From Thermotogaceae bacterium (GTDB lineage Bacteria; Thermotogota; Thermotogae; Thermotogales; Thermotogaceae), in assembly GCA_027077795.1 (NCBI GenBank), contig JALWTT010000006.1, positions 248,001-312,000 of the forward strand: a stretch of 64,000 nucleotides of DNA. Reading direction: 5' to 3'. The notes below the pieces were generated by a model. It had not been told where the DNA came from. It saw only the letters and a program-made list of their open reading frames with translations, and did not search any database. Shown in pieces: positions 7,458-55,987 of the stretch. Every line of letters begins with the position of its first letter. Positions within the stretch are counted from its first letter, which is position 1. The translations under genes and the position numbers were made by a program.

Positions 7458-7759
7458 GAATTGGGGATAAGTTCATAGGGCTTAATGGCAAGTACATTAT
7501 AAGGGAAAAATTGGAATACAACCCGTTTTCTTTCGGGGAAGTTGTAGGTTTTTACCTTCGCGCTGATAAGATCCTTCCGGTTGTGAACATTCAAGAAGTG
7601 TTGAATTTGAAGAGATGCTCAAAGAGGGTGTTTCTCATATCAGATGAAGCGGTTTTTTTGGTCGAATACGATTCGCTTTCAAAATCACATGAGGGAGAAG
7701 AAATAGATCTTGATTTGGTTCTCAAGGAGGTAAGAAAGAAGCTCGATGGAAGGGCTTGA
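7442..7759 (+). CDS. Short CheW-like coupling protein
   Basis: A 105-residue protein starting at GTG 7442 inside the end of the BamA gene. The segment GFYLRADKILPVVNIQEVL matches the pattern of CheW domains, in which a glycine turn and a short strand are followed by Leu-Pro-Val-hydrophobic residues. It is shorter than ordinary CheW (about 150 residues), so only part of the double barrel may be present. It directly precedes and overlaps a CheA-like kinase by 14 bp, which supports a role as receptor-kinase coupler. The assignment rests on this short motif and context; an unrelated small protein is possible. Confidence 0.55.
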   Translation: MDFVLRIGDKFIGLNGKYIIREKLEYNPFSFGEVVGFYLRADKILPVVNIQEVLNLKRCSKRVFLISDEAVFLVEYDSLSKSHEGEEIDLDLVLKEVRKKLDGRA

Positions 7760-9089
7760 GGATATAATCGAGCTTTTCAAGCAGGAGGTTTCAGATAGAT
7801 TATCAAGGGTTGAAGAGGAGCTCGTTAAGAACTCCGGAAAGGATGTAGAGCTCATATACAGAGAGTTTCACACCATTAAAGGAACTTCCCAGATGCTCGG
7901 ATTTGAGAACTACGCGAAAGCGGCTCATATGGTTGAGGATGTCGTGAAACCGCTCTGGAAAGCGAGCGCCTCTCTTCCTTCGGAATTCATACCGCGTCTT
8001 CTTAGCGTCATAGATGTGCTGAGAAAAAAGGTAGGAGAAGATCTATCAAGTGGTGATATGGAAAAGATAGATTCGGTGCTCAAAGGGGAAAATTTGGAGA
8101 GGTCTGATGAGGTAGGCCTTGAAATAGTGAGCGAGATAGACAAAAAGCTTCTTGAGAAGGTGGTTGATGAGTCAGAGGATGTTCTTTTTCTCATATACAG
8201 GAGGTATTCAGATGATAACGAGCTTTCAAGAAAGGTGGGTTTTCTATCTGACAGCTTGAGGGAGCTTTACTGGCAGCTTGAGACAGTCTCGCTTCAGAAG
8301 GTAATAAAGGGCTTTGACAGGCTCGTTTACGATGAGGCGTCAAGGGGAGGAAAGATTGTTAGGTTTGAATCAGATGTGAAAGGTATCAGAGTCAAAAAAG
8401 AGATTGCCTCCTCTGTCAGAGATGCACTCGTTCACATAGTTAAGAATGCGGTGGTCCACGGGATAGAGAAGCCAAAAGAGAGAAAAAAGCTTGGAAAACC
8501 TCGGGAGGGTGTAGTTAAGATATCCGGGAAGGCTTCTGGAAAGAGGATAATCATAGAGGTTTCAGATGACGGGGGTGGAATAGATTTCGAGAAGATAAGG
8601 GAAAAGCTTGAAAAGCTTGGAAAGGAAGTGCCGAGTAATGAAAAAGGGCTTTTGAGCGTGATATTCGAGCCTTTCTTTTCAACGAAAGACATGGCGGATA
8701 TTGGGGGCGGGAGGGGAGTTGGGCTGTCCTCCGTGAAGACTTTCATAGAGTCGATAGGAGGATCGATATCGATAAGAACGAAGAAAGGTAAGGGGACGAC
8801 TTTCGTCATAGAGGTGCCGAGTGAGAGGGTCTGGGAGCGCGTTATGGTGGTAAAAAGCAAGGGAGCACTTTACGCACTGAAGATAAGTGATGTGGAGAAA
8901 GTAGAAGCTGGACTTGATGGTGAGTTTTCAGGGCCAGTAAGTGCGGTTTTAAGGAACGGGAAGGTCTACAGGTTTGATTCGAAAGTGCTCGAGGATGAGC
9001 TCGCGGTCATGGAGAATCCATTTCCATCTCTTGAGAACGTCGTTTTCTGGGTGGATTTTTTGGGAATTCCAGTACCGGTTCTCAGGTGA
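7746..9089 (+). CDS. Divergent CheA-like histidine kinase
   Basis: A 447-residue chemotaxis-type kinase, much shorter than typical CheA (about 650-700). An Hpt (P1) domain occupies roughly residues 1-100 with His42 in the FHTIKGTSQMLGF motif. The ATPase domain has an N-box (HIVKNAVVHGIE), G1 (DDGGGID), F-box (FEPFFSTK) and G2 (GGGRGVGLSSVK). The C-terminal 80 residues look like a reduced CheW-type regulatory domain. Between P1 and P4 there is room only for a P3-like helical segment, so the P2 domain that binds CheY appears absent. The ATG at 7746 lies 16 nt after GGAGGT, so initiation probably depends on coupling to the overlapping CheW-like gene. A PilJ-type receptor lies just downstream. 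No cheY, cheB or cheR is in the window. Confidence 0.8.
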   Translation: MEGLEDIIELFKQEVSDRLSRVEEELVKNSGKDVELIYREFHTIKGTSQMLGFENYAKAAHMVEDVVKPLWKASASLPSEFIPRLLSVIDVLRKKVGEDLSSGDMEKIDSVLKGENLERSDEVGLEIVSEIDKKLLEKVVDESEDVLFLIYRRYSDDNELSRKVGFLSDSLRELYWQLETVSLQKVIKGFDRLVYDEASRGGKIVRFESDVKGIRVKKEIASSVRDALVHIVKNAVVHGIEKPKERKKLGKPREGVVKISGKASGKRIIIEVSDDGGGIDFEKIREKLEKLGKEVPSNEKGLLSVIFEPFFSTKDMADIGGGRGVGLSSVKTFIESIGGSISIRTKKGKGTTFVIEVPSERVWERVMVVKSKGALYALKISDVEKVEAGLDGEFSGPVSAVLRNGKVYRFDSKVLEDELAVMENPFPSLENVVFWVDFLGIPVPVLR

Positions 9090-51248: not shown

Positions 51249-52883
51249 TCACCTCCTTGGAAAAACAAGGAGGCCAGTTGCTACATATCTTTCTTTACCG
51301 TTTCCAGTGAATACCATGTCCTTTACAACCATGGTTGAAGAGCTTCCACCATCGAGAAACATTGCGCTGACAAAGCCACGGCTGGTTAAATAGTTCACCA
51401 TGTCGTCGTACGTCACCTTTCCTTCGGTCATCATGAGCACAACTGTATGAGAGTCCTTCAGCGCGATGAGAGTTCTAGTAGCTTTGTAGAACGCCAATCT
51501 ACCACCGTATCTGTGCTTTTCGCTCTCTTGGTCTTTGGGAGGATTGCCATTCAAAAGTATCAACGGCCCTGCTTCAACAGCCTGTTTTATCGGAATGTCA
51601 AATGTCGTGACAACTCTCACCCTGAAAATGTCGTTGACCTTTAAACCGGTAAGGTATTCAGAATACTTCGGATCAACTGATACCAGATACTCACCAGCAT
51701 CTAAAAATTTTCTGTACCCAAAGCTGGTTATTCTCCCATCTTTTCCGACTATGTAAATTCTTCCCTCTATTTTTGGGATGGCTTTTGCATATTCGTCTGT
51801 GAATAGTATGACATCCCCTTTTGCAATGGTATTTATCCCTTTCACGAGGAATAGGGTTTTACCTATCAAAGCGTGCACCTCTACAAAGAATTTACCGATC
51901 ATTGCCTCATTGCTATCGGTTACGACAAATATAGGTCTACCTCCAAAAGCTGTCGAAAGAGGTTTACCGTTCCTCACGAGTAATCCAACTATGAGGGATG
52001 TCTTCGGGTCGAAATAGTTCGCGTTCACGCCAGCTAAAGCGCCCGTTCTATCAACCATACTCTTTATGGTTTCAAGGCTTCCGACCCCCGCTGCGGAAAT
52101 CTCTGGAACTACAGAAGCCTTTCTGAGGTCAACATATATCGAATCCACTGTCATGGTGTCTCCGTCTATCTTGACCTTTTCCCTCTTGAACAGCACCCCA
52201 TCCGATAAGTTCATTTCTCCGAAGAATTCCTCTGACTGGGGAATTAACCTTATCTCTACGATGTTGTCTCGGAAGTAAAGAACAGGCCTCATGTATTGCC
52301 CAACATTTACCGTCATTCGAAATTCTCCGTCTTCGAATTTCCAGTTTAGACTATCGGAGATGTTCAGAACCTTCTTGACAGGATACGAATCCAGTTCCAA
52401 CACACCATTTTCCAAGCTAGTTGATACCATTTCGCTCGGCACAGGAGCGTTGAACTTCAGAAAAATGCTTTGAGAGGTCCTTTCAACTGATACTATACTT
52501 CTGTCTTTCAAGAAAATGGCCTTGCCACCTCCTGGAAGATTTTGCCACTTCAGTTTGGTGATATCCTCAACAATGGATGCGGAGATGTAGACCACACTCC
52601 CTGAAAACAGGCATCCTCTCTCGCTCAAGGTCTCAACGAAATCCATGGTGACCTTTCCGCTCTGGCGAAGCGTCGCTATGTGATCGCCATAAAACAGGTA
52701 CACTGAACCACTCAACGGATCCCCAACGAGCTCAAAGCCAAGAGGTGAAAGGTCACTCACCAGAAGGAAGGTATCTCCTCTATCGACTGTTCCTGACACC
52801 TTCCATACCCTGTTGGAGACTATGTAGTAGTTCGAGAAAGCAAATGTTCCCAGAATCAGGAGTGTTGCTAAGAAATTCTTCAC
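51249..52883 (-). CDS. Exported phosphodiester glycosidase-domain protein
   Basis: A 544-residue protein with a signal peptide (1-17), a strand-rich N-terminal half (about 20-255), and a C-terminal NAGPA/phosphodiester glycosidase domain (about 262-544). The latter is recognised by AGVNANYFDPKTSLIVGLL, GRLAFYKATRTLIAL and FLDGGSSSTMVVKD. The family hydrolyses GlcNAc-1-phosphodiester-type bonds in some proteins; in bacteria the substrates are probably wall or exopolysaccharide polymers. GTG 52883 follows GAGGTGATC. It lies between pdp and uvrB in one transcription unit. Confidence 0.82.
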   Translation of the reverse strand: MKNFLATLLILGTFAFSNYYIVSNRVWKVSGTVDRGDTFLLVSDLSPLGFELVGDPLSGSVYLFYGDHIATLRQSGKVTMDFVETLSERGCLFSGSVVYISASIVEDITKLKWQNLPGGGKAIFLKDRSIVSVERTSQSIFLKFNAPVPSEMVSTSLENGVLELDSYPVKKVLNISDSLNWKFEDGEFRMTVNVGQYMRPVLYFRDNIVEIRLIPQSEEFFGEMNLSDGVLFKREKVKIDGDTMTVDSIYVDLRKASVVPEISAAGVGSLETIKSMVDRTGALAGVNANYFDPKTSLIVGLLVRNGKPLSTAFGGRPIFVVTDSNEAMIGKFFVEVHALIGKTLFLVKGINTIAKGDVILFTDEYAKAIPKIEGRIYIVGKDGRITSFGYRKFLDAGEYLVSVDPKYSEYLTGLKVNDIFRVRVVTTFDIPIKQAVEAGPLILLNGNPPKDQESEKHRYGGRLAFYKATRTLIALKDSHTVVLMMTEGKVTYDDMVNYLTSRGFVSAMFLDGGSSSTMVVKDMVFTGNGKERYVATGLLVFPRR

Positions 52884-52884
52884 C

Positions 52885-54189
52885 TTAGCGGATCACCTCG
52901 TGGATCATCGGCATCTTCATGACTTTTTCATCGCTGATTTCATAAGCACTGGCTACTTTCTCCATTGCTTCTTCTAGCTTTGAGTTTTCCGAGTAGTACA
53001 ATATCGCCAAGGGTTCACCGTTTTCCACTTCGTCTCCCACCTTCTTCAGCACCTCTATTCCAACCGAGTGATCTATGTTTTCACCTTTTTTTGTTCTTCC
53101 AGCACCGAGGAGAATGGATGCCACCCCTATATCTTCCGTGTTTACACTCTTGATGAACCCCTTTTTCTTGGATTTGACTTCTATGGTTTCTGCGGATATT
53201 GGAAGGACTTCTCTTGGATTTTCTACAACCCTTTCATCTCCTCCCTGTGCCTTCACCAGATCTGCAAATTTCTGCAAAGCTTTCCCATTTTTGATATTTT
53301 CCAATAGCTGCCTTTTAGCTTCTTTCCTGTCCATCCTCCCGGAAAGTTCCACCATGTAGGAAGAAAGCTCCAGACAGAGTTCAAAAAATTTTTCGTTGTA
53401 GTTTCCTTTAAGAGTCTCTATGGCTTCTAGAACTTCTAGGGAATTTCCCACAAATCTTCCAAGTGGTTCATCCATGTTGGTCACCAGAGCTACCGTCTCT
53501 TTGCCGTGGGCTTTTCCTATGCTCACCATGGCTTTTGCGAGTTTCACCGCATCTTCCACTGTCTTCATGAATGCACCACTTCCAGCTTTTACATCCAAAA
53601 CGAAGGCATCCGCGCCTCCAGCTAACTTTTTACTCATAATGCTGGCTGATATCAGCGATATTTCATCCACCGTTGCCGTTGTATCCCTCAGGGCATACAT
53701 CTTTTTATCAGCCGGCGCCAAATTCGCTGTCTGACCAACTATGGCTATTCCATACCTCTTAACGTTGCTCTTGAACTCTTCGAGGGTAAGGGATGTTTTG
53801 AACCCTGGAATTGATTCTAGCTTGTCTATGGTTCCCCCGGTGTGTCCCAGCGCTCTTCCAGACATCTTGGCTATTGGAATACCGAGTGATGCAACCATAG
53901 GAGCCACAACGAGAGTTGTCTTGTCTCCAACTCCACCACTGGAGTGCTTGTCAACGATCTTTTCCCCTATGTCCGAGAGATCTATCATGTCCCCTGATCT
54001 GGCCATTATTTCCGTCAGTGAAGCCCTCTCCTCGTCATCCAGGTGTTGAAAGAATATCGCCATGAGAAACGCCGCCATTTGGTAATCTGGAATTTCACCT
54101 TTCACGTATCCCATTACCATGAATTCCATTTCCTCTTTGGTTAATTTATTCCCATCTCTCTTCTTCTTTATCACTTCATAAGGAATCAC
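52885..54189 (-). CDS. pdp: Pyrimidine-nucleoside phosphorylase
   Basis: Cleaves uridine, thymidine or deoxyuridine with phosphate to base and (deoxy)ribose 1-phosphate. The diagnostic DKHSSGGVGDKTTL (about 80-93), AKMSGRALGHTGGTIDKLESI and KKLAGGADAFVLDVKAGSGAFM motifs are present. It is 434 residues long. GTG 54189 follows GGAGGGAGAAA and gives the normal VIPYEVIKKKRDG N-terminus; the frame is open 27 bp further upstream. It overlaps the response-regulator gene by 14 bp. Its product is the substrate of the phosphopentomutase at 23280-24455. Confidence 0.94.
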   Translation of the reverse strand: MIPYEVIKKKRDGNKLTKEEMEFMVMGYVKGEIPDYQMAAFLMAIFFQHLDDEERASLTEIMARSGDMIDLSDIGEKIVDKHSSGGVGDKTTLVVAPMVASLGIPIAKMSGRALGHTGGTIDKLESIPGFKTSLTLEEFKSNVKRYGIAIVGQTANLAPADKKMYALRDTTATVDEISLISASIMSKKLAGGADAFVLDVKAGSGAFMKTVEDAVKLAKAMVSIGKAHGKETVALVTNMDEPLGRFVGNSLEVLEAIETLKGNYNEKFFELCLELSSYMVELSGRMDRKEAKRQLLENIKNGKALQKFADLVKAQGGDERVVENPREVLPISAETIEVKSKKKGFIKSVNTEDIGVASILLGAGRTKKGENIDHSVGIEVLKKVGDEVENGEPLAILYYSENSKLEEAMEKVASAYEISDEKVMKMPMIHEVIR

Positions 54190-54895
54190 TTTCTCCCTCC
54201 TTTTCTGGGTCAACAAATTTATAACCCTTGCCTCTCACTGTGACTATGTATTTGGGTTTCGATGGATTCTCCTCTATCTTAGTCCTGAGTCTTCTTATGT
54301 GAACATCGACGGTTCGTGTATCCACAAAATAATCATATCCCCATAATCTGTCAAGCAAAGTCTCTCTGGAGAAAACCTTTCCTTTGTTCTCCGCTAGAAA
54401 GCATAGCAAGTCGAACTCGAGTGGTGTCAGATGTATTGACCTCCCATTTTTTCTCACCTCGTAGCTCTCCTTATCTATCTCCAGGTTTCCAAACGAGATC
54501 TTGGGAGGTTTGTTTTCCTCCTTTTTCGTGTCCCACTCGATCCTTCTGAATATCGCCTTGATCTTAGATGCAAGTTCTTTTGTATTGAAAGGCCTCACGA
54601 TATAATCATCCGCTCCCATTTCCAGAACTATTATTCTGTCTATCTCGTTCCCCTTTCCAACGAATACCACCGGAACCGTTTCATGTTGCTTCATGGTTCT
54701 TATCCTCCTGAGGAGATCTCTCGCCCCAGTGCCGTCATCGATCAATATGAGGTCGAAGCTCTCCTTTCTCAGAGCCTCGACAGCCTCTCTCTGTGAGAAA
54801 GTCGATACAACGTCAAACGCTTCTGATTTCAAAGCGCTGGTTATCATGCTGTTCATCTCTTTATCATCTTCCACAACGAGGATTTTCTGATTCAA
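54176..54895 (-). CDS. OmpR-family regulator with an atypical receiver
   Basis: A 239-residue two-domain regulator. The receiver (1-120) keeps the acidic pair D10/D11 and a phosphoacceptor position D53, but the loop after D53 is about three residues short, the conserved Thr/Ser is replaced by Gly (about residue 80), and the invariant Lys is Arg101 (YIVRPF). The C-terminal winged helix (about 130-232) is a normal PhoB/OmpR type with TPLEFDLLCFLAENKGKVFS and DVHIRRLRTKIE. TTG 54895 follows GGAGGGGATTC. No histidine kinase is adjacent, so it may work without classical phosphorylation. Confidence 0.88.
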   Translation of the reverse strand: MNQKILVVEDDKEMNSMITSALKSEAFDVVSTFSQREAVEALRKESFDLILIDDGTGARDLLRRIRTMKQHETVPVVFVGKGNEIDRIIVLEMGADDYIVRPFNTKELASKIKAIFRRIEWDTKKEENKPPKISFGNLEIDKESYEVRKNGRSIHLTPLEFDLLCFLAENKGKVFSRETLLDRLWGYDYFVDTRTVDVHIRRLRTKIEENPSKPKYIVTVRGKGYKFVDPEKEGESDSL

Positions 54896-54914
54896 ATCGA
54901 ATCCCCTCCTGGAA

Positions 54915-55958
54915 TTATTTAAGGGCTCTCTCGATGTTCCTACTCCTGATCCTGAGCTGACCGCAAGCAGCGTCTATGTCTGTTCCCTTTTCTTTCCTTA
55001 TTTCGACTTCCAACCCATTCTTCTCTAAAATTCTTTTGAAAGCTTCTATCCGCTTCTTAGATGGTCTTTGAAAATCCCCAACAACTGGATTGACCGGGAT
55101 AAGATTGACAAATACCCTGAGCCCTCTCAAAACCTGAACGAGTTTTTCAGCATCTGAATCAAAGTCGTTGATCCCCCTTATCATTATATACTCTATAGAC
55201 ACTCTACTGCCCGTTATTTTTTGGTACTCTTTTGCAGCCTGGATGACTTCTTCGATGGGGTATCTAACATTTATCGGAACAAGAAAATCTCTTTTGTGAT
55301 TATAAGATGCATGGAGGGAAATCGCCAGCCTTGCTTTCATTCCATCCTTTGCAAAAGAGATGATTTTTTCTGGTATCCCAACAGTTGAAACAGTGATGTG
55401 CCTTATTCCCACGCCAAGCATCTTCGGATGGTTGAGTATCTTCATACTCTTTATGACGTTCTTGTAGTTCAAAAAAGGCTCTCCCATTCCCATGTAAACT
55501 ATGTTTCCTATCTTCAACTTGGAATCCTTCTCCATGTGGATTATCTGACTCACGATTTCGCCAGTCGACAGATTTCTGACAAATCCACTTAAACCAGTTG
55601 CACAGAATCTGCAACCAACAGGACATCCAACTTGTGTGGATATGCAAGCCGTAACTCTGTTGGGATAGAATATGAGGACAGACTCTATTGTATTCCCATC
55701 CTGGAGCTTCCAAAGATACTTCGTCGTTCCGTCAATTTTCGAAACTTGCTTGCCGAGCATCTCCAACCTGTCCAAGGTGTAGCTTTCCGAGAGTTTTTTT
55801 CTTTGCTCCTTGGAAAGGTTGGTCATCTCCGAAAAATCGAGTACGTGCTTATCGTACACCCAACTTGCTATCTGGTCTGCTCTGTACCTCTCCCATCCCA
55901 GAGTTTCCACAATTTCACTTTTTAATTCCTCGTAGTCCATACCTGTAATGCTCTTCAA
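54915..55958 (-). CDS. rlmN: Dual-specificity RNA methyltransferase RlmN
   Basis: A radical SAM enzyme that makes m2A2503 in 23S rRNA and m2A37 in some tRNAs, 347 residues. The [4Fe-4S] motif is CPVGCRFCATG (about residues 113-123). The resolving and acceptor Cys pair includes the C-terminal AACGQLR. MGMGEPFLNYKNV is family-typical. TTG 55958 follows GGAGGTGAT; an ATG 21 nt upstream precedes the Shine-Dalgarno. Confidence 0.95.
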   Translation of the reverse strand: MKSITGMDYEELKSEIVETLGWERYRADQIASWVYDKHVLDFSEMTNLSKEQRKKLSESYTLDRLEMLGKQVSKIDGTTKYLWKLQDGNTIESVLIFYPNRVTACISTQVGCPVGCRFCATGLSGFVRNLSTGEIVSQIIHMEKDSKLKIGNIVYMGMGEPFLNYKNVIKSMKILNHPKMLGVGIRHITVSTVGIPEKIISFAKDGMKARLAISLHASYNHKRDFLVPINVRYPIEEVIQAAKEYQKITGSRVSIEYIMIRGINDFDSDAEKLVQVLRGLRVFVNLIPVNPVVGDFQRPSKKRIEAFKRILEKNGLEVEIRKEKGTDIDAACGQLRIRSRNIERALK

Positions 55959-55978
55959 CGAGTCATCACCTCCGAGCA

Positions 55979-55987
55979 TTTATAACA
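55979..55987 (-). promoter_or_regulatory. Extended -10 of rlmN
   Basis: TGTTATAAA on the minus strand, TGn plus five of six -10 bases. The transcript would start about 14 nt before the TTG, close to the Shine-Dalgarno. Confidence 0.45.

Follow-up and report, generated by a model that had tools for sequence, protein, structure and literature searches.

An orphan DrrA-type response regulator in Thermotogota with a broken receiver pocket and a probable phosphorylation-independent mode of action

How does an OmpR/PhoB-type response regulator work when it has neither a neighboring kinase nor an intact receiver pocket? The question is raised by a gene in a 64,000-nucleotide stretch of a Thermotogaceae genome (the window), which a preliminary description had called an orphan OmpR-type regulator with a degenerate receiver. 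The open reading frame is complete and coincides exactly with the coordinates in Table 1, in a genome (G000) of 1.72 Mb with 12 receiver domains. Pfam finds a Response_reg domain (PF00072; 61.1 bits, cut-off 30.2) and a Trans_reg_C winged-helix output domain (114.4 bits, cut-off 26.2). The protein falls below the NCBIfam equivalog cut-offs for YycF (216 of 340 bits), MtrA (206 of 300), and PhoB (205 of 296). MtrA (2gwr) is the closest structural match to its AF2 model (Z 27.8, rmsd 2.0, 219 residues aligned), and its DNA-binding domain is 50 to 53% identical to WalR/VicR domains. Judging from sequence and gene order, we consider it probable that this is a DrrA-type regulator after the loss of its kinase, HpkA, with a pseudo-receiver that would be active as a dimer, without phosphorylation, on the old DrrA sites. 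DrrA and HpkA are the names of the regulator and its partner kinase in Thermotoga maritima.

Table 1. Positions of the features discussed (window numbering unless a locus is given)
Feature	Position	Strand	Details and basis
Putative pseudo-receiver OmpR/PhoB-type response regulator, DrrA orthologue	54176..54895	(-)	239 aa, TTG start; ORF list, Pfam, orthologue search
Degenerate receiver domain, residues 1-118	54542..54895	(-)	Pfam, alignment, AF2 model
Winged-helix DNA-binding domain, residues 131-228, conserved	54212..54505	(-)	Pfam
D53, phospho-acceptor position	54737..54739	(-)	Asp retained in window species; alignment
Junction of 3-residue deletion, beta3-alpha3 loop (D53/D54)	54734..54739	(-)	alignment
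G80, in place of conserved Ala	54656..54658	(-)	switch Ser/Thr immediately before is deleted; alignment
R101, instead of catalytic Lys	54593..54595	(-)	alignment
Ribosome-binding site aggagggg	54903-54910	(-)	7 nt ahead of regulator TTG; read from sequence
Presumed rlmN-type radical SAM gene	54915-55979	(-)	directly upstream of regulator, 19 nt gap; ORF list
Presumed pdp (pyrimidine-nucleoside phosphorylase)	52885..54189	(-)	occupies relatives' kinase position; ORF list, gene order
NAGPA-type phosphodiester glycosidase	51249..52883	(-)	after pdp in ancestral cluster; PF09992
Kinase remnants, about 220 aa	L134:8049-8693, L135:1667-2326, L136:5086-5745	(-)	HpkA slot of sister genera

Outside g1, the genus of the window species, each of the 97 complete receivers has its catalytic positions (D/E-D, D, S/T, and K) intact (G035, which is incomplete, was left out). 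In all three g1 receivers the pocket is broken, and each of them lacks both the Ser/Thr and the Lys, which bears out the degenerate receiver of the preliminary description. The orthologue alignment likewise confirms the replacement of Lys by Arg at 101 and the shortened loop after D53, from which the I-M-L of "DIMLPG" is gone. That description also had the switch residue near position 80 changed from Thr/Ser to Gly. The residue is indeed lost, with the same effect, but the Ser/Thr that stood at the end of beta4 was deleted, not substituted, and the Gly replaces the next residue, an Ala. The deletions, the absent Ser/Thr, and the Lys-to-Arg change are common to the window species and the two other g1 species. 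Since the loop is short in three species, this is neither chance nor sequencing error, and a frameshift or assembly error is ruled out. The window species retains the acidic pair, E9-D10, and with D53 in place it does not class as an aspartate-less receiver (ALR). The two other species additionally carry Glu at 53 and Asn at the second acidic position. Structure prediction, one of the checks first proposed, gave a model in which the receiver fold is retained (pLDDT 88). We infer that phosphorylation no longer drives the activation of the window regulator.

The lack of an adjacent kinase was also correctly noted: the ORF list of the window has no kinase gene between the rlmN-type gene and pdp, two labels assigned from family features and from the sequence, respectively. 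The pdp start codon (GTG, 54187-54189) gives a 14-nt overlap with the regulator stop. Downstream lie the glycosidase (PF09992, 84 bits) and also uvrB, and the rlmN-type gene adjoins the regulator in the rest of g1 and in G002 and G003 as well. In the two other g1 species (L140:11406-12164, L141:2462-3220), the regulator has a longer, charged C-terminal tail, whose overlap with the start of pdp is 53 nt. To place the gene within Thermotogota, we compared the stretch around the regulator for each of the 100 other orthologues. An orthologue, the single best match per genome, is present in 101 of 103 genomes (the misses are G067 and G069); of the 101, 92 have an HpkA-type kinase as the next gene downstream. 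In many families the kinase is followed by pdp and then the glycosidase. The neighbors named in the preliminary description are therefore real, but they are not a new arrangement, since pdp and the glycosidase are ancient partners across much of the phylum. The window gene is the single best match in its genome and keeps the gene order to pdp and the glycosidase, as expected of a DrrA orthologue; the adjacent HpkA-type kinase is absent in all three g1 genomes. Gene order thus points to a missing kinase that once belonged to an ancestral cluster of regulator, HpkA, pdp, and glycosidase genes. There is no support for horizontal replacement of the regulator, as the gene order and the single match in each genome favor vertical descent.

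Nine genomes lack an adjacent full kinase: the three of g1, three of the sister genera g2 (G001, G002) and g3 (G003), and three of family f7 (G018 to G020; loci L230, L231, and L246). In f7 the regulator adjoins neither a kinase nor pdp, its pocket is intact, and the best HpkA matches elsewhere in the genome have 29 to 41% identity. A relocated HpkA orthologue was not found in the window genome, where the best matches are a kinase of about 500 aa and kinds that are also present in HpkA-bearing genomes. Across g1 to g3 the best matches are 34 to 38% identical kinases of about 500 aa, a type that likewise occurs alongside HpkA in other genomes; orthologues of HpkA at 70% identity or more are found in G004 to G011 only.

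The kinase slot of g2 and g3 holds an ORF of 216 to 228 aa next to an intact receiver, in 3 of the 103 genomes. Profile comparison relates residues 85 to 212 of this ORF to the catalytic portion of HpkA (probability 97.8, E 1.3e-12), and HATPase_c exceeds the Pfam cut-off in one of the three. An alignment of the three remnants shows in all of them an invariant His-Asp, the Asn box, and the late Gly pair; the stretch that starts at the DxGxG box and takes in the ATP lid is missing. The AF2 model (pLDDT 84.5) has a two-helix hairpin and a kinase-like core, which resembles histidine-kinase cores (4kp4, Z 18.6, rmsd 2.8, 164 residues aligned). Ordinary histidine-kinase cores appear among the matches listed in the fold searches; Spo0B and ChpT do not. 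The remnant could transfer phosphoryl groups as Spo0B and ChpT do, act as a phosphatase, or serve as an allosteric partner. A pdp tree groups the genera as (g3,(g2,g1)), with supports of 99 and 100, and the remnant is therefore best read as ancestral to g1 to g3 and lost in g1. This topology, which comes from one gene, pdp, implies a probable order of events in which the kinase was first truncated and then lost. In the same tree, pdp of g1 to g3 clusters with family f3, away from g4 and g5 of its own family; transfer of the whole cluster, or tree error, may lie behind this. Since all the evidence comes from one clade, kinase loss and receiver decay count as one historical event.

Is the regulator still in use? 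The window protein and a T. maritima-like orthologue are 39% identical in the receiver and 73% in the DNA-binding domain. Among the 97 sequences outside g1, we defined near-invariant columns as those with conservation of 97% or more, and called a column changed if it differs in two or more g1 species. By this measure 14 of 38 receiver columns are changed, a good many of them near the pocket and its loops, whereas the DNA-binding domain has 1 changed column of 54, a Lys-to-Arg replacement (Fisher p 8e-6). Residues L91, E92, G94, D96, D97, Y98, P102, F103, and E107 are retained in g1 receivers and correspond to positions at or near the dimer interface in PhoB-family structures. Within g1, pN is 0.12 to 0.21 for the receiver and 0.06 to 0.09 for the DNA-binding domain, against a pS of 0.77 to 0.87, which is saturated and so yields no exact dN/dS. 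In each domain pN is much lower than pS, so the regulator is under purifying selection and neutral decay is ruled out; this is indirect evidence that the protein still acts in the cell. Evolution of the receiver was nonetheless fast relative to pdp. The receiver/pdp distance ratio is 1.86 in g1 and 0.29 in g2; across g2 and g3 it is 0.70, and no group without g1 to g3 exceeds 0.74. At pdp distances of 0.1 to 0.2, receiver distances are 0.228 to 0.342 in g1, while 71 pairs from outside average 0.051 (maximum 0.102). The DNA-binding domain of g1 is faster as well, 0.064 to 0.096 against a maximum of 0.043 at similar pdp distance.

These observations suggest the following course. In the ancestor of g1, g2, and g3, HpkA would have been cut down to the remnant of about 220 aa. 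In g1 the remnant is gone as well, and comparison shows that the receiver has lost residues that accept and read the phosphoryl group. The receiver is predicted to fold still, and it keeps most of its alpha4-beta5-alpha5 dimerization face, next to a DNA-binding half that is nearly unaltered. Given the predicted fold, the largely kept dimer face, and the DNA-binding half, dimerization and DNA binding independent of phosphate are the most likely outcome. The regulator would thus dimerize and bind the old DrrA sites, with its activity presumably governed by how much protein is present or by a partner.

Some observations count against a pseudo-receiver. A conserved Arg of the dimer face is Lys at 111 (R111K), the DNA-binding domain has sped up, and the receiver had already changed strongly on the stem that g1 shares with g2 and g3, both of which keep the pocket. 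D53 and the acidic pair leave room for some phosphorylation in the window species. A non-adjacent kinase or acetyl phosphate could still modify the protein if R101 and the rebuilt loop substitute for the Lys and the Thr; the genome has other HisKA-type kinases, and f7 shows that a pocket can persist where no kinase adjoins. We nevertheless regard continued phosphorylation as quite unlikely, given that the acceptor is Glu and the acidic pair contains Asn in the sister species, that all three species lack the Ser/Thr and the Lys, and that, measured against pdp, the receiver has diverged about five times as much as in the relatives. The faster evolution of both domains might also be taken to mean that the gene has no role and is on its way out under relaxed selection. 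This is very improbable: pN is well below pS in both domains, the ORF in the window is intact and preceded by a strong ribosome-binding site, 53 of the 54 near-invariant columns of the DNA-binding domain are retained, and the two other species have intact genes that are 74 to 77% identical.

Another alternative is that the receiver has become a sensor: its empty pocket and new loops would recognize a ligand, either a small molecule or a partner protein, and that ligand would control the dimer. Purifying selection on a receiver predicted to keep its fold would suit such a role, and a 2025 review keeps both direct and partner control of pseudo-receivers as options (PMC12632262). The receivers of the window species and its two congeners are only 66 to 68% identical, however, and the window receiver has no Cys and is therefore not a redox switch of the kind outlined for RitR. 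We consider the sensor unlikely and favor a regulator that dimerizes on its own. The same review names intrinsic dimerization (ChxR, GlnR, HP1043, and others) and Glu in place of the Asp as possible origins of constant activity in pseudo-receivers, and it describes the means by which they are turned on and off as a major unknown (PMC12632262). Glu is at the acceptor position in both sister species and not in the window species, and it therefore is not a shared cause of constant activity.

We also looked for DNA sites. The window shows no enrichment of direct repeats of the PhoB type (3 matches, 4.6 expected) or the WalR type (7 matches, 6.1 expected). In family f2, the element TGTTATAATGTTAACA precedes the regulator in 10 of 10 loci (L170 to L175, L180, L192, L195, and L196), roughly 60 to 85 bases ahead of the start, where it overlaps a -10-like TATAAT. 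Repeats of this kind occur in 11 of 49 loci in all, against at most 2 in shuffles; this count leaves out 51 of the 100 loci, in which the start motif was absent or less than 150 bases lay upstream. The element may be a promoter only or an autoregulatory site. Elsewhere in the window (7746-9089, plus strand), a 447-aa CheA-like protein is encoded, flanked by a 105-aa ORF and the gene for a methyl-accepting-like protein; Pfam finds Hpt and HATPase_c only, with no dimerization or CheW domain at E<=1.

Among known systems, T. maritima DrrA is orthologous to the window regulator, with the same gene order and the 73% identical DNA-binding domain, but its pocket is intact and HpkA is adjacent, and the receivers share just 39% identity. 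In PMC7598275, HpkA and DrrA appear as an assayed pair. ChxR of Chlamydia trachomatis is described in PMC3960148 as an OmpR/PhoB regulator that dimerizes and binds DNA without phosphorylation, which is the activity that sequence predicts for the window protein. The closest precedent appears to be CosR/CosS in Campylobacter. CosR (Campylobacter jejuni) and HP1043 (Helicobacter pylori) are, as outlined in PMC3938529, orphan OmpR-type regulators with a conserved DNA-binding half and a variable receiver, like the window protein; they differ from it in phylum and origin. The same source places a cosS kinase gene downstream of cosR in some Campylobacter and notes its absence where the acceptor Asp is replaced. 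The state of the sister genera, a kinase remnant beside an intact receiver, does not figure in the available part of this account. Among the open-access papers searched, we found no report of kinase loss from a DrrA-type regulator in Thermotogota.

Pseudo-receiver regulators are thus already known, and what stands out here is an unusually clear stepwise history with a kinase-remnant intermediate. More tentatively, one family may hold three living stages of a single dismantled system: a full kinase with a full receiver, a remnant with a full receiver, and a pseudo-receiver that runs the old regulon alone with no kinase. The middle stage would then be a kinase converted in place into a non-kinase partner (a phosphotransferase like Spo0B or ChpT, a phosphatase, or an allosteric partner), and this conversion might have enabled both the loss of the kinase and the decay of the receiver. 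The ancestral, intermediate, and end states of one regulator are open to comparison, with proteins that should be heat-stable and easily purified. The case also reveals which parts of a receiver, the dimer face and the fold, are still selected once its phosphate chemistry is lost.
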